Shown here: piece by piece, positions 6,984-15,323 of the stretch
How positions within the stretch are numbered: the stretch's first letter is position 1
Layout of the letters: every line of letters starts with the position of its first letter
Source of the DNA: Gammaproteobacteria bacterium
Lineage (GTDB): Bacteria; Pseudomonadota; Gammaproteobacteria; SZUA-140
DNA length: 46,598 bases
Assembly: GCA_021648525.1 (NCBI GenBank)
Contig: JAKISP010000032.1
Coordinates: 1-46,598 of the forward strand
Reading direction: 5' to 3'
Notes under the pieces: generated by a model
Databases searched by the model: none
What the model saw: only the letters and a program-made list of their open reading frames with translations
Told to the model about the DNA's origin: nothing
Program-made: the position numbers and the translations under genes

Positions 6984-7068
6984 TGGTGCGAAAGGAGAGA
7001 CTCGAACTCTCACGGGTTGCCCCACTGGTACCTAAAACCAGCGCGTATACCAATTTCGCCACTTTCGC
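6984..7068 (-). tRNA. tRNA-Leu (anticodon UAG)
   Basis: Minus-strand cloverleaf with acceptor GCGAAAG/CTTTCGC, long variable arm (class II), T-loop GTTCGAGTC, encoded CCA (6984-6986), and anticodon loop TTTAGGT giving UAG. Last tRNA of the five-gene cluster upstream of tig. Confidence 0.95.
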
Positions 7069-7174
7069 AAAGTATGAACATATTACGATGTAATATGCCT
7101 GGCTAACAAAATACTACCGCAGTATATATTTAAACTGCACATCTTTAAACACCACACCAACCACTATAATATAA

Positions 7175-7250
<76 letters not shown>

Positions 7251-7255
7251 AAATA

Positions 7256-7331
7256 TGGGGTGAACGATGGGGCTCGAACCCACGACCACCGGAATCACAA
7301 TCCGGGGCTCTACCAACTGAGCTACGCTCAC
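7256..7331 (-). tRNA. tRNA-His (anticodon GUG)
   Basis: Minus-strand cloverleaf. Anticodon stem CCGGA/TCCGG with loop TTGTGAT gives GUG. The discriminator base is C as expected for His, and the base at 7332 supplies the extra 5-prime G (-1). CCA is encoded at 7258-7256. Confidence 0.95.
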
Positions 7332-7365
7332 CATAAAACCTTAAAACAGAGCCACACTATAAATA

Positions 7366-7442
7366 TGGCGCGCCTGGCAGGACTCGAACCTGCTACCCTC
7401 GGCTTAGAAGGCCGATGCTCTATCCGGATGAGCTACAGGCGC
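7366..7442 (-). tRNA. tRNA-Arg (anticodon UCU)
   Basis: Minus-strand cloverleaf with acceptor GCGCCTG, anticodon stem TCGGC/GCCGA with loop CTTCTAA giving UCU, T-loop GTTCGAGTC, and encoded CCA. Confidence 0.95.
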
Positions 7443-7529
7443 TTAAACCGCCAGGATGGCTATCCCGCTTCATTCTCGGGGACGACCATCCACAAGTCAC
7501 ATTAGGACATGGGACAGACTGACTTTAAA

Positions 7530-7606
7530 TGGTCGGGGTAGAGAGATTCGAACTCCCGACATCCTGCTCCCAAAGCAGGCGCGCTACCAGGCTGCGCTAT
7601 ACCCCG
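7530..7606 (-). tRNA. tRNA-Pro (anticodon UGG)
   Basis: Minus-strand cloverleaf with acceptor CGGGGTA/TACCCCG, anticodon stem CCTGC/GCAGG with loop TTTGGGA giving UGG, and encoded CCA. It is the first tRNA after the cluster promoter. Confidence 0.95.
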
Positions 7607-10267: not shown

Positions 10268-10777
10268 TTAAAGAGGTACGACTAACGTCGCCTTTTTCAC
10301 CCCTGATTGATCACTAAACCGCACCTGCTGGTAAGATCCTCGCTCCAGTTTCAACAGCAGGCAAGGGCTAGTCAACATCTGTCCAACCATCATGTCACGG
10401 CCTGGCGCTATCCATTCCAGCAAAACCTCCGCACTTCCCTTCTCGACTTTAGCGCTGGAACTCACCAACGCCAAACGATACCCCAATGTTGGACGCAGTC
10501 CCATTTCCATCAGGACAACCCGCTCACGATCAAAATCTATCGTCGGCATCGCCTCCTGCGGAAATTTGTCATAAAGGTGCTGTAGCGCTATCGCATTTGA
10601 GACCCAACTGGCCTGTGCATCAGGTTCTTCTCGCCCACATTGCATACTGGCATAAAGTACGCTGACCTCGACACGGGCTGAAGCAGCATCACCATTACGC
10701 ACCGCTGAAGAACTTGAGGCGCATGCAGTCATACCGGAAAAGGTTGTAGCAAGCAACAAAGAGAGTATCGTTTTCAT
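10268..10777 (-). CDS. PrcB-like (protease complex subunit family) putative lipoprotein
   Basis: Protein of 169 aa with a signal sequence (MKTILSLLLATTFSGMTAC) and a lipobox-like MTAC, so probably an exported lipoprotein. The C-terminal half (TLGYRLALVSSSAKVEKGS to the end) has the pattern of the PrcB_C domain: a GY segment, two beta strands, then SPCLLLKLERGSYQQVRF. PrcB is known from Treponema denticola, where it binds and stabilises the dentilisin protease complex. Here the gene begins 3 bases after the stop of a subtilase gene, which supports a similar partner role. The family call rests on pattern recognition alone. Confidence 0.65.
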   Translation of the reverse strand: MKTILSLLLATTFSGMTACASSSSAVRNGDAASARVEVSVLYASMQCGREEPDAQASWVSNAIALQHLYDKFPQEAMPTIDFDRERVVLMEMGLRPTLGYRLALVSSSAKVEKGSAEVLLEWIAPGRDMMVGQMLTSPCLLLKLERGSYQQVRFSDQSGVKKATLVVPL

Positions 10778-10780
10778 TAA

Positions 10781-13459
10781 TTATTCCAGCTGTTTTATTG
10801 TCGGTTGCCGCCTGAATCCCATTGGGGTACCTGCGCGCTGAAGCAGCGAACTCGCCTGAACCCCCACACCAAATCCAGTGATAAAGTCGAGCCCACTATG
10901 GGTATCATCACGCCCAATGGTACGGAAATCTCCCGGTGAAAAATAGATGCCACACGCTTCACCGAAATCACAGAGCAGAGAATCATTATCGAGGTCTGTC
11001 CCTCCAACCACATAGTATTCACGATCAGCAGGAAAAAGCACATTATCAAACTGGTAGCGATAACTGCCACCCTCTGCCGCACCTTGCCACTGATCTAATA
11101 CACTAAAGTCAGCCGTATCAATCAACAATACATAATGGTAGCCCGCATCAGCATTAAGTGCCTGTGCTATCACCTGCATCGACACAGAAACGGTCACGCT
11201 ATTCACCGAAGAGGCAAAAACAATCTCAGCCTGATAGCTCCCTTCTGATACGCTCGCCCTGTCAACAATCACCCGGTATAGCCCTGACTTTGTGGTGGCA
11301 TTCACCGTTGCTTCACTCACTGTTAACCACCCAGGCGCACCCGTCACTGTCACCGAATTGATTTGCAATGTACCACTGCCGACATTGCTAACCGCCAGCA
11401 TCGCACTGCTGCCTACCGCCCCCATATTAAGAGTGGTTGGTGAGATCCCCAGTAATGGTGGCGGGGCTGGTGCCGATTGAGCCGCGACTACCGCGCTATG
11501 GGCATTGATCAATCCATGGCCAAAGATATCATCGCGTCCCACTGCGCCAAGGTCTTCAACAATCGCGCCGCTCTGTAACAACGCATCAACAGCGGCAGGT
11601 GTTAACGTACTGTTACTCGATTTCATCAACGCAACCACCCCAGCCATATGTGGTGCCGCCATTGAGGTGCCATTATAAACACCATAGATAAAACTCACTG
11701 CCGCGCCCGAATCATCGCCCAGCGTACTCAACACACCATCGCCAAAACCATCGCCATCAATATCCGTGCCGGTATAACCGCCGGGAGCAGCAACATCAAC
11801 CGTCGAACCGAAACTGGAATAAGGTGCCTTCTGTTTACTGATGTCCACCGCCGCTACCGAGATCACACCCGCATAGGCCGCCGGGTAATTAAATACACTC
11901 GAATTTTCATTGCCTGCAGACGCAACAACAATAACGCCCGCACCACGCACCTCGGTGTAGAGATCCTGTTCAGCCTGTATAGAACCACCAACCCGCCCCA
12001 GGCTCAGGTTAATCACATCGGCGCGCTGTGTTGCATTCAATATTATGCCGGAATCGTTACTCAAACCCGCCGCATAACGCACACTCTGTATGATGTCGTA
12101 ACTCGTGCCACCATTTTTACCCAATGCGCGCACCGGCATAATTTTCACGCCCGGTGCCACACCGGCAATCCCACTCCCACCCGCAGAAAAAGCGGTGGCG
12201 GCCGCCACCGTACCAGCCACATGTGTACCATGAAACGAACTTCTTGCCACTCCAATGCTATCACCGGGATCATCAGGGTTTGCATCAATACCCGGTTCGC
12301 CATCGCCGGAACTACTGTCGCTGCTGATAAAATCATAACCACCATCGGCAGAAAACTGACCCTGCAGGTCGGGATGGTTAAGTAACACGCCGGTATCAAC
12401 CACCGCAACAGTGACACTCGACACACCTGTTTCAAGATCCCATGCAGCAGGTAGATTGATCAACGGATAATGCCACTGGCTGCTATACAGCGGGTCTGTC
12501 GGCACCGCGTTTGTCTGGTAGATGTAGTTCGGCTCGGCATAAAGCACATCAGCACGTTGTCGCAGCGCTTTGATCACCTGCATTGTCTCAAATTTAAGCT
12601 GCTTATCAACATTATCAAAGCGGAACTGGCGATCACGGTTTTGCACTAACCCCAGTGTTTTAAAGGTCGCAGGCCGCGCCTGCGATGCGCCAAGGTTCAT
12701 TAACTGTGAACGTTGATGACTGCTACCCGCTTTCGCCTGCAAACCAAGCGCGGCAGCCCGTGCCGCAGGCAGTCGCTTAGCAGCAGGAATACTCAGATCG
12801 TCGCGAAACTTTACAATCACGTCCCCTGCGACAAACGCATCGGTAGAGTTCAGCCTCCCCGGCATTTGCTGAGGGGCGAAATTTCCAACCGTTAATGTGT
12901 AACTGGAATAGCCCGAAGCAAGCCGCACTTCAATAAAATAGTCGCCACTTGCGCTAATGGGAAGCGTTTTAATTGCTCCGGATGCAAGCGAACTCGCTTC
13001 CAGTGTCGGCAGGCTAGTACCATTATCATTATAAAGATAGAGATCCAGGTCGCCGGTAAAGGCATTCGCTATCGTCACCGTTACTGTTTGCCCAGCCTCT
13101 AAACGAACACGGTAATAATCAGAAAGATCCCCAAAACTCGATGAACCTCCTACGGGACCAGATCCTGCCAGATTCAGATAACCGCCAAGCGTAACCGGAC
13201 TCGGTATGGCTTGTGCTACCAGATAAGTATCATTAGAAACATAGCGTGCAAACGGGTCATTAACATCACTATCAACAACCGTACCTGCTGCAATTCCGAT
13301 AGTGCCACTAAGCGTCGATGTGGGAGCCGCCGAAATTACCGGGGGCGCCACCCCGCCGCCGCCACTACTGCCACAACCATTTATAAAAATAGTGAGCACG
13401 ACACATAGAGAGAGGCGACAAGAGCCTTTTCTGCTTAAACAACGATCAATCAACGGCAT
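10781..13459 (-). CDS. Subtilisin-like (S8) serine protease lipoprotein with PPC and BACON-like domains
   Basis: Probable cell-surface or periplasmic protease of 892 aa. Order: signal peptide with lipobox INGC (Cys about 29), Gly-rich spacer, a pre-peptidase C-terminal (PPC) domain (about 80-195, FGDLSDYYRVRLEAGQTV), an I9-like prodomain (VIKALRQRADVLYAEPNYIY), then the S8 domain. Catalytic Asp is in VAVVDTGV (about 355), His in FHGTHVAGT (about 410) and Ser in NGTSMAAPH (about 599). A BACON/Ig-like module and a C-terminal segment with Asp-rich, Ca-binding-like text (GTDLDNDSLLCDFGEAC) follow. The start at 13459 is preferred because it gives a clean lipoprotein signal. An in-frame ATG at 13543 would add 28 residues. 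The PrcB-like gene follows immediately. Confidence 0.9.
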   Translation of the reverse strand: MPLIDRCLSRKGSCRLSLCVVLTIFINGCGSSGGGGVAPPVISAAPTSTLSGTIGIAAGTVVDSDVNDPFARYVSNDTYLVAQAIPSPVTLGGYLNLAGSGPVGGSSSFGDLSDYYRVRLEAGQTVTVTIANAFTGDLDLYLYNDNGTSLPTLEASSLASGAIKTLPISASGDYFIEVRLASGYSSYTLTVGNFAPQQMPGRLNSTDAFVAGDVIVKFRDDLSIPAAKRLPAARAAALGLQAKAGSSHQRSQLMNLGASQARPATFKTLGLVQNRDRQFRFDNVDKQLKFETMQVIKALRQRADVLYAEPNYIYQTNAVPTDPLYSSQWHYPLINLPAAWDLETGVSSVTVAVVDTGVLLNHPDLQGQFSADGGYDFISSDSSSGDGEPGIDANPDDPGDSIGVARSSFHGTHVAGTVAAATAFSAGGSGIAGVAPGVKIMPVRALGKNGGTSYDIIQSVRYAAGLSNDSGIILNATQRADVINLSLGRVGGSIQAEQDLYTEVRGAGVIVVASAGNENSSVFNYPAAYAGVISVAAVDISKQKAPYSSFGSTVDVAAPGGYTGTDIDGDGFGDGVLSTLGDDSGAAVSFIYGVYNGTSMAAPHMAGVVALMKSSNSTLTPAAVDALLQSGAIVEDLGAVGRDDIFGHGLINAHSAVVAAQSAPAPPPLLGISPTTLNMGAVGSSAMLAVSNVGSGTLQINSVTVTGAPGWLTVSEATVNATTKSGLYRVIVDRASVSEGSYQAEIVFASSVNSVTVSVSMQVIAQALNADAGYHYVLLIDTADFSVLDQWQGAAEGGSYRYQFDNVLFPADREYYVVGGTDLDNDSLLCDFGEACGIYFSPGDFRTIGRDDTHSGLDFITGFGVGVQASSLLQRAGTPMGFRRQPTIKQLE

Positions 13460-13731
13460 TACGAAAACCCCGACAAAAATTTCCGCTACCCATTTAATCG
13501 TGGTATCGGAAAAACTAATATCTTTTCGCTCAAAAGCACCCATTCATGCGCGTATCGGCCGCGAGCTACAGGGCTTGAAAACCTATGGGATGATTATACC
13601 TGCTGGCGAAAGCTTTACTATGCGAGGAATATCACAAAAACCAATCGAAACTTTCGCGACTAATAACAATTCCGACAGGGAATTCAGATGTTCAAGATCG
13701 CAATTACCATCAATGTAACCCTGGCGGAACA

Positions 13732-15114
13732 CTAGATCACCCTGGAAAAACGCTGTTCAGTCTGCTGACGCAGATAACGATCAAACACCATGCAGACATT
13801 GCGGATCAGCAGACGACCAGCCGGCAGCACGCTGATCTTATCGCCATCAATCGTCAACAACCCATCTGATTCAATCTGACGAATCTCTTCCATTTCCAGT
13901 GTAAAGTATTCAGCAAAATCGATATTGAACTGCTTCGCGATCACGCCCATATCCAGTTCAAACTGGCAGATCAGTCTGGTGATCACTTCACGACGCAGAA
14001 TGTCATCATCATTTAGCTCAACCCCGCGATAGACGGGTAACTTACCGGCATCAATCAATTCGGCATACGCTTCAACCGTTTTCACATTCTGGCTATAGGT
14101 ATTAGCCACCATGCCAATCGAGGTAACACCCATCGCGACCAGGTCACACTCCGCATGGGTCGAGTAGCCCTGAAAGTTACGGTAAAGGGTACCCTCTCGC
14201 TGCGCCACGGCCAGTTCATCATCCGGCCGGGCAAAGTGATCCATGCCGATATAAACATAACCAGCCTGCTTCAGGCGTTCATTGGTCATCTGCAAAATAT
14301 CGAGCTTTTCGGTCGCTGACGGCAGGTCTTCATCAAGGATACGACGTTGCGGTTTAAACATCTCCGGCAGATGTGCATAGTTGAAGACTGAAAGACGATC
14401 TGGCCCCGCTGCAATCACTTTGTCAACTGTTTTTGCAAACCCGGCCAGTGACTGAAATGGCAGTCCATAGATCAGATCCACACTCACCGACTTAAAACCC
14501 TCAGCCCTCGCCTGGTCAAGTACCGCAAAGGTCTGCTCTTCAGTCTGAATACGATTCACCGCCTTCTGTACTTTAGGGTCAAAATCCTGCACACCCAAAC
14601 TCATGCGGTTAAAACCGAGTTCACGCAACAGTTTAATGGTATCGTTTTGCACCTCACGCGGATCGATCTCAATCGAATACTCACCGCTGTCATCATCATG
14701 CAGATTAAAATGTTCACGGGTCTTTGCCATTAGCGCCATCATCTGCTCATGGCTGATAAAGGTCGGTGTGCCGCCGCCCCAGTGAAGCTGATCCACTTTG
14801 CGTGATTTATCAAATAGCGCACCCTGCATCTCAATCTCTTTAAACAGTGATTCGAGGTACGGCACCGCGTGTTTGCGATTTTTGGTCGCGATCTTGTTAC
14901 ACGCACAGTAAAAGCAGAGTGTGTCGCAAAATGGAATATGGAAATAGAGCGAGAGAGGCCCACCTGCCCGGTTGCTCTTCGCGGTGACAGCGTGATATCC
15001 CGCCTCAGCAAAACGCTCGTCAAACTTCACTGCTGTCGGGTACGAGGTATAACGCGGACCACTTTTATCGTAGCGACGAATTAAGTCGATATCAAAAACC
15101 AGTGACTGATCCAT
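13732..15114 (-). CDS. hemN: Oxygen-independent coproporphyrinogen III dehydrogenase
   Basis: Radical SAM enzyme that oxidatively decarboxylates coproporphyrinogen III to protoporphyrinogen IX when oxygen is low, for heme synthesis. The N-terminal SGPRYTSYPTA and the iron-sulfur motif CDTLCFYCACNK are diagnostic, and the HemN C-terminal domain is present. The start is ATG 15114-15112 (MDQSLVFDID) with AGGAG about 7 bases upstream. An ATG seven codons earlier lies before that ribosome site. Product is 460 aa. I found no convincing FNR box upstream. Confidence 0.97.
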   Translation of the reverse strand: MDQSLVFDIDLIRRYDKSGPRYTSYPTAVKFDERFAEAGYHAVTAKSNRAGGPLSLYFHIPFCDTLCFYCACNKIATKNRKHAVPYLESLFKEIEMQGALFDKSRKVDQLHWGGGTPTFISHEQMMALMAKTREHFNLHDDDSGEYSIEIDPREVQNDTIKLLRELGFNRMSLGVQDFDPKVQKAVNRIQTEEQTFAVLDQARAEGFKSVSVDLIYGLPFQSLAGFAKTVDKVIAAGPDRLSVFNYAHLPEMFKPQRRILDEDLPSATEKLDILQMTNERLKQAGYVYIGMDHFARPDDELAVAQREGTLYRNFQGYSTHAECDLVAMGVTSIGMVANTYSQNVKTVEAYAELIDAGKLPVYRGVELNDDDILRREVITRLICQFELDMGVIAKQFNIDFAEYFTLEMEEIRQIESDGLLTIDGDKISVLPAGRLLIRNVCMVFDRYLRQQTEQRFSRVI

Positions 15115-15323
15115 ACTAAGCTCCTGACCCGCCATGGGAAATTAATATCGGCGCGGGTAATCAGCCATTATAAGGGAATTCAGCCTTCGCGGCGAATTAT
15201 AACCGCCATACCCGACTGTAACCCTATGATATTTAAACTGATATAACAACCGCACCAGATAGAGTCAATATGAGAAATCGTATCAAAACACTTCAGAGTA
15301 CTAAATGACGAACCCAGAGCAAC

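Follow-up and report, generated by a model that had tools for sequence, protein, structure and literature searches.

The 46,598-nucleotide contig JAKISP010000032.1 (assembly GCA_021648525.1, Gammaproteobacteria, SZUA-140), hereafter the window, encodes on its minus strand a subtilase lipoprotein of the S8 family followed, after exactly three bases, by a lipoprotein of the PrcB family. PrcB is a component of the dentilisin protease of the gum-disease bacterium Treponema denticola, where it is reported to interact with the subtilase PrtP (PMC8167434). The domains of the two window proteins, their lipobox patterns and the one-frame three-base spacing of the genes were established directly. So was the recurrence of the pair, with gene order kept, across two phyla and beside different types of subtilase. 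On balance we consider it somewhat probable that PrcB is a dedicated assembly or stabilising partner of its subtilase, and an anchor for it where PrcB is itself lipidated.

The PrcB-family lipoprotein

As shown in Table 1, the two genes are separated by a single codon, and their reading frames coincide across the junction (TAA TTA ATG). The downstream gene product gave 29.8 bits with PF14343 (PrcB_C) against a cut-off of 24, and 31.9 bits in a search of the whole genome, and thus belongs to the family; it was the only PrcB_C match of the genome at E ≤ 0.001. The NCBIfam model NF033596 (denti_PrcB) was matched with 43.4 bits (E 3.1e-11) over model positions 55–172 of 176, and 57 of the 62 members of our PrcB alignment, the window protein included, matched this dentilisin PrcB model at E ≤ 0.01. 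The homology to PrcB asserted in a preliminary description of this DNA is therefore upheld. The same description placed a PrcB-like lipoprotein three bases behind a subtilase lipoprotein and gave both proteins lipid anchors; coordinates and gap were confirmed, and so were the anchors as sequence patterns, each protein having a lipoprotein signal with a lipobox cysteine (I-N-G-C in the subtilase, M-T-A-C in PrcB) that was read by eye and not by a dedicated predictor.

Of 75 distinct PrcBs that partner the window type of subtilase, 74 keep both Cys47 and Cys139 of the window PrcB, and that of L198 keeps only the first. This tally comprises 71 proteins scored by script and three in which the cysteines were readable at the alignment cut-offs; duplicate loci and L115 were excluded. 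Among 56 other PrcBs both cysteines are present in 22 and both absent in 28. The two residues may form a disulfide. When 47 paired PrcBs were tested for a lipobox, 12 failed the strict pattern, and seven of these (L065, L081, L100, L109, L145, L147 and L162) keep a lipobox-like cysteine by eye.

Modelled by itself, PrcB is predicted to be largely beta structure plus a single helix (predicted local distance difference test, pLDDT, 92.9; predicted template modelling score, pTM, 0.85), and confidence is high throughout apart from the first ten residues. No match to the PDB was obtained with Foldseek at E ≤ 0.001. A second fold comparison gave Z scores of 3.8–4.4 for five Bacteroides and Parabacteroides proteins, led by a putative Bacteroides lipoprotein (Z 4.4, root-mean-square deviation 4.3 over 94 residues), which is too weak either to assign a fold family or to exclude one. 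Two long frames (L066, 1115 amino acids; L071, 542 amino acids) were considered as natural PrcB-subtilase fusions and rejected, PrcB_C being the only domain found in either.

Recurrence of the pair

PF14343 was detected in 58 of the 369 genomes sampled from the class, at 62 places. At 21 of these places the gene immediately upstream, in the same orientation, is an S8 gene, where about 0.06 is expected if subtilases are placed at random and the places are independent (some genomes are close relatives); the adjacency is not accounted for by chance. The 58 genomes hold 161 S8 matches at E ≤ 1e-10. Two more pairs of the class, missed by PF14343, were recovered with a profile of our own, one in G070 and one in G308, whose PrcB is cut by the contig end.

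Genomes of named species were scanned with the PrcB alignment (stated size of the set, 84,980 genomes), and 43 loci were returned, partly on the same contigs as other loci, so that the sets overlap. A subtilase of the window type, recognised by its C-terminal domain (CTD), stands directly upstream of PrcB at 30 of the 43. One further locus (L143) has a remnant. For the other 12, which belong to Salinisphaera, Ectothiorhodospira and a single record labelled Endozoicomonas, the sequence retrieved around PrcB contains no subtilase of this type. All five named loci of Thermodesulfobacteriota and all three of Marinobacter are paired. The genus g281, which matches Marinobacter and holds the M. daqiaonensis genome, has PrcB_C in 57 of 61 genomes; all 30 of its loci that were read are paired, 29 with an upstream subtilase and CTD and one at a contig edge with the CTD end only. 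In every paired locus of the class, of the named species and of g281 the subtilase comes first and PrcB second. The PrcB_C match and the spread of the adjacency beyond this one genome were the two points on which the preliminary description had staked the pairing, and on both it stands.

The phylum to which the Desulfatitalea genome belongs has PrcB_C in seven of 198 genomes, that genome included. Two of the seven carry the window type of subtilase, four have none within about 1.5 kb on either side, and in one (L194) PrcB stands behind another frame. The frame before PrcB in L194 (2–1704) reads by eye as a subtilase end followed by CARDB, of which Pfam confirmed only CARDB, and the PrcB behind it has a lipobox-like cysteine; the contig starts inside the upstream gene, and the locus is possibly a third independent pairing.

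Within the order, PrcB occurs in nine of 20 genomes and the cognate subtilase (E ≤ 1e-60) in eight, all of which have PrcB. The ninth PrcB genome (G012, 66% complete) has beside PrcB only a C-terminal remnant of the subtilase in two frames; its PrcB frame is open and has lost the lipid cysteine (one case), and an identical PrcB gene is present in L143. In the close relative SZUA-128 (L143, 5602–5889; also L004) the subtilase is reduced to a two-frame C-terminal remnant beside an open PrcB that lacks the lipid cysteine. Over 45 pairs, the distances between PrcBs and those between subtilases are correlated (r = 0.74, a value reached in none of 2000 permutations; species history is not controlled in this comparison).

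A second paired subtilase type

The subtilase paired with PrcB in genome G154 is of another build, with an I9 prodomain, S8, Big_7 and a weak MAM-like end, and has neither lipobox nor CTD. Its PrcB also has no lipobox and groups with lone PrcBs in the PrcB tree. This I9-S8-Big_7 type stands directly before PrcB at seven of eight further loci, in all six genomes of genus g142, to which G154 belongs, and in one more genome. The N-terminus of a subtilase of this type was read only in L055, where neither partner has a lipobox. The I9 type, the window type and PrtP of Treponema together suggest that PrcB has become associated with subtilases repeatedly.

Subtilase domains and maturation

The upstream gene product gave 179.1 bits with Peptidase_S8 and belongs to the S8 family. 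Asp383, His438 and Ser627 (920-residue numbering), the catalytic triad by analogy with subtilisin, are intact. The most upstream ATG of the open reading frame (ORF) would extend the gene to 10781–13543; the ATG at 13459 fits better, because it gives a normal lipoprotein signal (I-N-G-C) and has a G-rich stretch upstream, both judged by eye. The subtilase lipobox is present by the strict pattern in 30 of the 36 paired relatives scored with an N-terminus, and in three more by a looser one.

In the single-chain predicted model the prodomain region is folded as a block, with a break of low confidence after it, and in the relative L059 both the prodomain (PF22148) and the Ig-like region (BACON_2) score over their cut-offs. 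Several solved mature subtilases align from window residue 346–348, after the lipid, PPC and prodomain regions, and from this we infer a prodomain cleavage point at about residue 345. Since these relatives begin there, maturation should free the window subtilase from its own anchor. The closest solved protease domains include those of secreted subtilases, namely AprV2 and BprV of Dichelobacter and a Pseudoalteromonas arctica protease (5yl7), with E from 8.8e-56 to 2.6e-41.

The class sample holds 20 pairs of the window type that were detected with PF14343, and the CTD motif is present in every one; most of these pairs also served as rows of the CTD profile A1. The CTD had no strong match in Pfam or the PDB (best PDB value, 0.21); DUF2141 and GBD_IRG7_N were matched weakly by nine of 19 members each, at best with 0.0013 and 0.0023. 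Both cysteines of the motif are replaced together in four of the five named Thermodesulfobacteriota subtilases (L155, L168, L170 and L179), and this joint replacement suggests that they form a pair. Genome G013 has a second CTD subtilase (L110, 415–3594), which carries two PKD domains.

Table 1. Features of the subtilase-PrcB pair in the window.
Feature	Position	Strand	Basis or remark
Subtilase (S8) lipoprotein gene	10781..13459	-	Further in-frame ATG at 13543
Subtilase lipoprotein signal, lipobox I-N-G-C, lipid Cys29 (counted from 13459)	13373..13459	-	Sequence pattern
PPC domain, residues 141-207 of 920	12923..13123	-	PF04151 5.6e-10; precedes the protease domain here
Predicted prodomain, residues ~236-345, fervidolysin-like	12509..12838	-	PF22148 0.0011, under cut-off
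Mature S8 protease domain, Asp383/His438/Ser627	11477..12508	-	Peptidase_S8 and solved relatives
Immunoglobulin (Ig)-like domain, C-terminal of the protease	11198..11455	-	Weak match, 0.031
CTD, motif G-T/S-D-x-D-x-D ... C-x-x-G-E-x-C-G	10862..11161	-	Own profile
Three-base gap, both genes in one frame	10778..10780	-	Sequence
PrcB-family lipoprotein gene, 169 amino acids	10268..10777	-	PF14343 6.9e-07, denti_PrcB 3.1e-11
PrcB lipoprotein signal, lipobox M-T-A-C, Cys19	10721..10777	-	Sequence pattern
PrcB_C domain	10343..10513	-	PF14343

Proposed role of PrcB

We propose that the subtilase and PrcB make up a single module whose genes are probably translated from a shared mRNA. The subtilase would be made as a lipoprotein carrying, in order, the lipid anchor, PPC, prodomain, protease, Ig-like domain and CTD, and the cut at the end of the prodomain would cost the mature protease its own covalent anchor. 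PrcB would be exported with the subtilase, bind the folding or mature protease and be required for its accumulation; a lipidated PrcB, as in the window, would hold the mature protease at the outer membrane. That the window PrcB binds, stabilises and anchors its subtilase we infer from the genetics of dentilisin. A non-polar prcB deletion in T. denticola is reported to leave prtP transcribed and PrtP protein undetectable; the mature complex is reported to retain lipid on PrcA1 and PrcB only, the acylated N-terminus of PrtP having been cut off (PMC8167434).

Several observations weigh against this role. Subtilase residues 226–920 and PrcB, modelled as one chain (mean pLDDT 83.9, pTM 0.69), gave no readable interface, and no contact is claimed. 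Five of the 47 paired PrcBs have no lipobox and stand beside subtilases that all have one (L063, L089, L096, L102 and L153). No adjacent PrcB was found in 20 of the 42 class genomes with a CTD subtilase, at least 0.67 kb downstream having been read in each (three of them, G053, G130 and G246, are weak CTD matches only), nor any PrcB on the contig of the second CTD subtilase of G013. An adjacent S8 gene was not detected at 41 of the 62 PrcB_C places, one of which (G144) is unscorable because of its position at the start of a contig, and 11 of the 58 PrcB_C genomes have no S8 match at all at E ≤ 1e-10.

The PrcBs without a lipobox beside subtilases with one argue against anchoring as the general task of PrcB. 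Taken with the G154 pair, in which neither protein has a lipobox, they make help in folding or stability the more likely shared task, with anchoring added where PrcB is lipidated. The 20 genomes lacking an adjacent PrcB suggest that PrcB is dispensable for the CTD type of subtilase. Although its presence in all 20 class pairs of the window type made the CTD an attractive candidate, it is not claimed as a docking domain for PrcB, given these 20 genomes and a second paired subtilase type that has no CTD. Across the class sample, subtilases occur in 211 genomes with at least 531 matches, and an adjacent PrcB was found for 23; of the 42 genomes with a CTD (profile A1), 22 have an adjacent PrcB. 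The preliminary description had gone further and suggested that a PrcB-type partner is a general subunit of surface subtilases, which these counts do not bear out and which the PrcB_C places and genomes without S8 weaken further.

Linked and unlinked states required 13 changes on the subtilase tree against 19.1 after shuffling (the lowest of 200 shuffles was 15), and nine against 21.7 on the PrcB tree; the subtilase tree omits five short fragments and six duplicate contigs, and the PrcB tree omits L095. With fewer changes than shuffled on both trees, pairing is clustered and has been repeatedly lost or gained. In two genomes of family f101 a gyrase-B-type gene (L120 by family search, L122 by eye) comes immediately after the CTD subtilase, unlike genus g281, which has PrcB between the two. 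The same two f101 genomes carry PrcB genes in tandem that have no subtilase close to them (L070, 5026–6046; L073, 4978–6269). A scan of 20 proteins encoded beside lone PrcBs, covering 16 of the 38 such loci, showed a hemN-like gene to recur at three; in L053, L054 and L056 the lone PrcB stands close behind this hemN-like radical SAM gene. In L098 (4373–6286) a lone PrcB is followed by lgt, the gene of the lipoprotein-lipidating enzyme.

Other roles for PrcB were weighed. As an inhibitor or guard, it would silence the protease in the periplasm until the surface or a substrate is reached and so protect the cell. A small, mostly beta lipoprotein encoded right after a protease would suit this task, and among the fold matches from Bacteroides and Parabacteroides that stand out slightly, two are named NigD-like and one of these is an immunity protein; these matches are weak, and a Z of 4.4 may reflect merely a common fold arrangement. 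The usual inhibitor of a subtilase is its prodomain, and the window subtilase already has a predicted one. In 20 of the 42 genomes with the window type, no PrcB was detected next to the subtilase. Since deletion of prcB in T. denticola is reported to lose the protease rather than unleash it (PMC8167434), we regard an inhibitory role as unlikely.

It is distinctly unlikely, in our estimate, that the two proteins share an operon and an envelope task without contact, PrcB acting on another target. PrcB_C proteins often have no subtilase nearby; against this, PrcB pairs with different types of subtilase and always in one order, and its interaction with PrtP is on record for T. denticola (PMC8167434). 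Highly improbable is a PrcB that serves as substrate or regulator and is cut by the subtilase, after the manner of PrcA, the lipoprotein of the dentilisin operon that is cleaved in a PrtP-dependent way. No cleavage of PrcB is reported for dentilisin in the consulted portion of the same paper (PMC8167434), and the fold of the window PrcB is predicted with confidence beyond the first ten residues, so that no long loose linker is seen.

Returning to PrcB as an assembly or stabilising partner, we put forward only tentatively a wider possibility, that it is a portable protease-assembly subunit with a foldase- or anchor-like role, taken up on at least three occasions by different lineages of subtilase, and that it follows the protease to the membrane or the medium. 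The acquiring lineages would be PrtP of spirochaetes, the lipoprotein subtilases with a CTD in two phyla and the I9-type subtilases of the G154 genus, the last two having, on this view, arisen apart from PrtP.

Genomic neighborhood

The pair is preceded by hemN (13732–15135) and followed by aroC and an MFS gene. Candidate sigma-70-like and terminator-like sites around it (six and seven, against 4.7 and 4.7 in shuffles) were not conspicuous and were not used. Elsewhere in the window, a plus-strand ORF of 81 amino acids (7260–7505) overlaps the tRNA-His and tRNA-Arg genes of the opposite strand (tRNA cluster 6984–7606), and because of this overlap it is probably a spurious frame.

Comparison with known systems

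AprV2, BprV and 5yl7 differ from the window subtilase in being single-chain protease entries of about 340–350 residues, and the matches to them say nothing on a PrcB partner. SphB1 of Bordetella is an autotransporter, and the window subtilase gave no match to an autotransporter domain.

The dentilisin PrcB-PrcA-PrtP system of T. denticola resembles the window pair in that an acylated subtilase and a PrcB lipoprotein are encoded in one operon (PMC8167434). A 2021 paper on dentilisin states that homologs of PrcB are lacking beyond the oral treponemes and that a single acylated subtilase is the counterpart of PrtP (PMC8167434). PrcB homologs outside Treponema are not new, since a PrcB domain is already mentioned for Kosmotoga (PMC5674127); no paper on a subtilase-PrcB pair outside Treponema was found in the open-access literature searched. 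Contrary to the 2021 statement, PrcB genes paired with lipoprotein subtilases span many families of Gammaproteobacteria and reach a second phylum, numerous bacteria of the sea and of sediments having the pair. What PrcB does thereby becomes open to genetics in cultivable non-pathogens, where its contribution to a protease can be separated from PrcA and from the host setting.

The differences from dentilisin concern order, partners and domains. The window has subtilase-PrcB where Treponema has prcB-prcA-prtP, its subtilase carries PPC and CTD domains, and no PrcA gene adjoins the pair (the neighbors are hemN and aroC; PrcA was not sought elsewhere in the genome). Scores against the dentilisin equivalogs lie below their cut-offs, at 43.4 bits against 125 for PrcB (NF033596) and 88.1 against 300 for PrtP (NF033595), where the best stretch is the protease domain. 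Because equivalog scores, gene order and the lack of a neighboring PrcA all depart from a dentilisin-type operon, the pair is not classed as dentilisin; in our reading it would nevertheless work like the PrcB-PrtP part of that complex.

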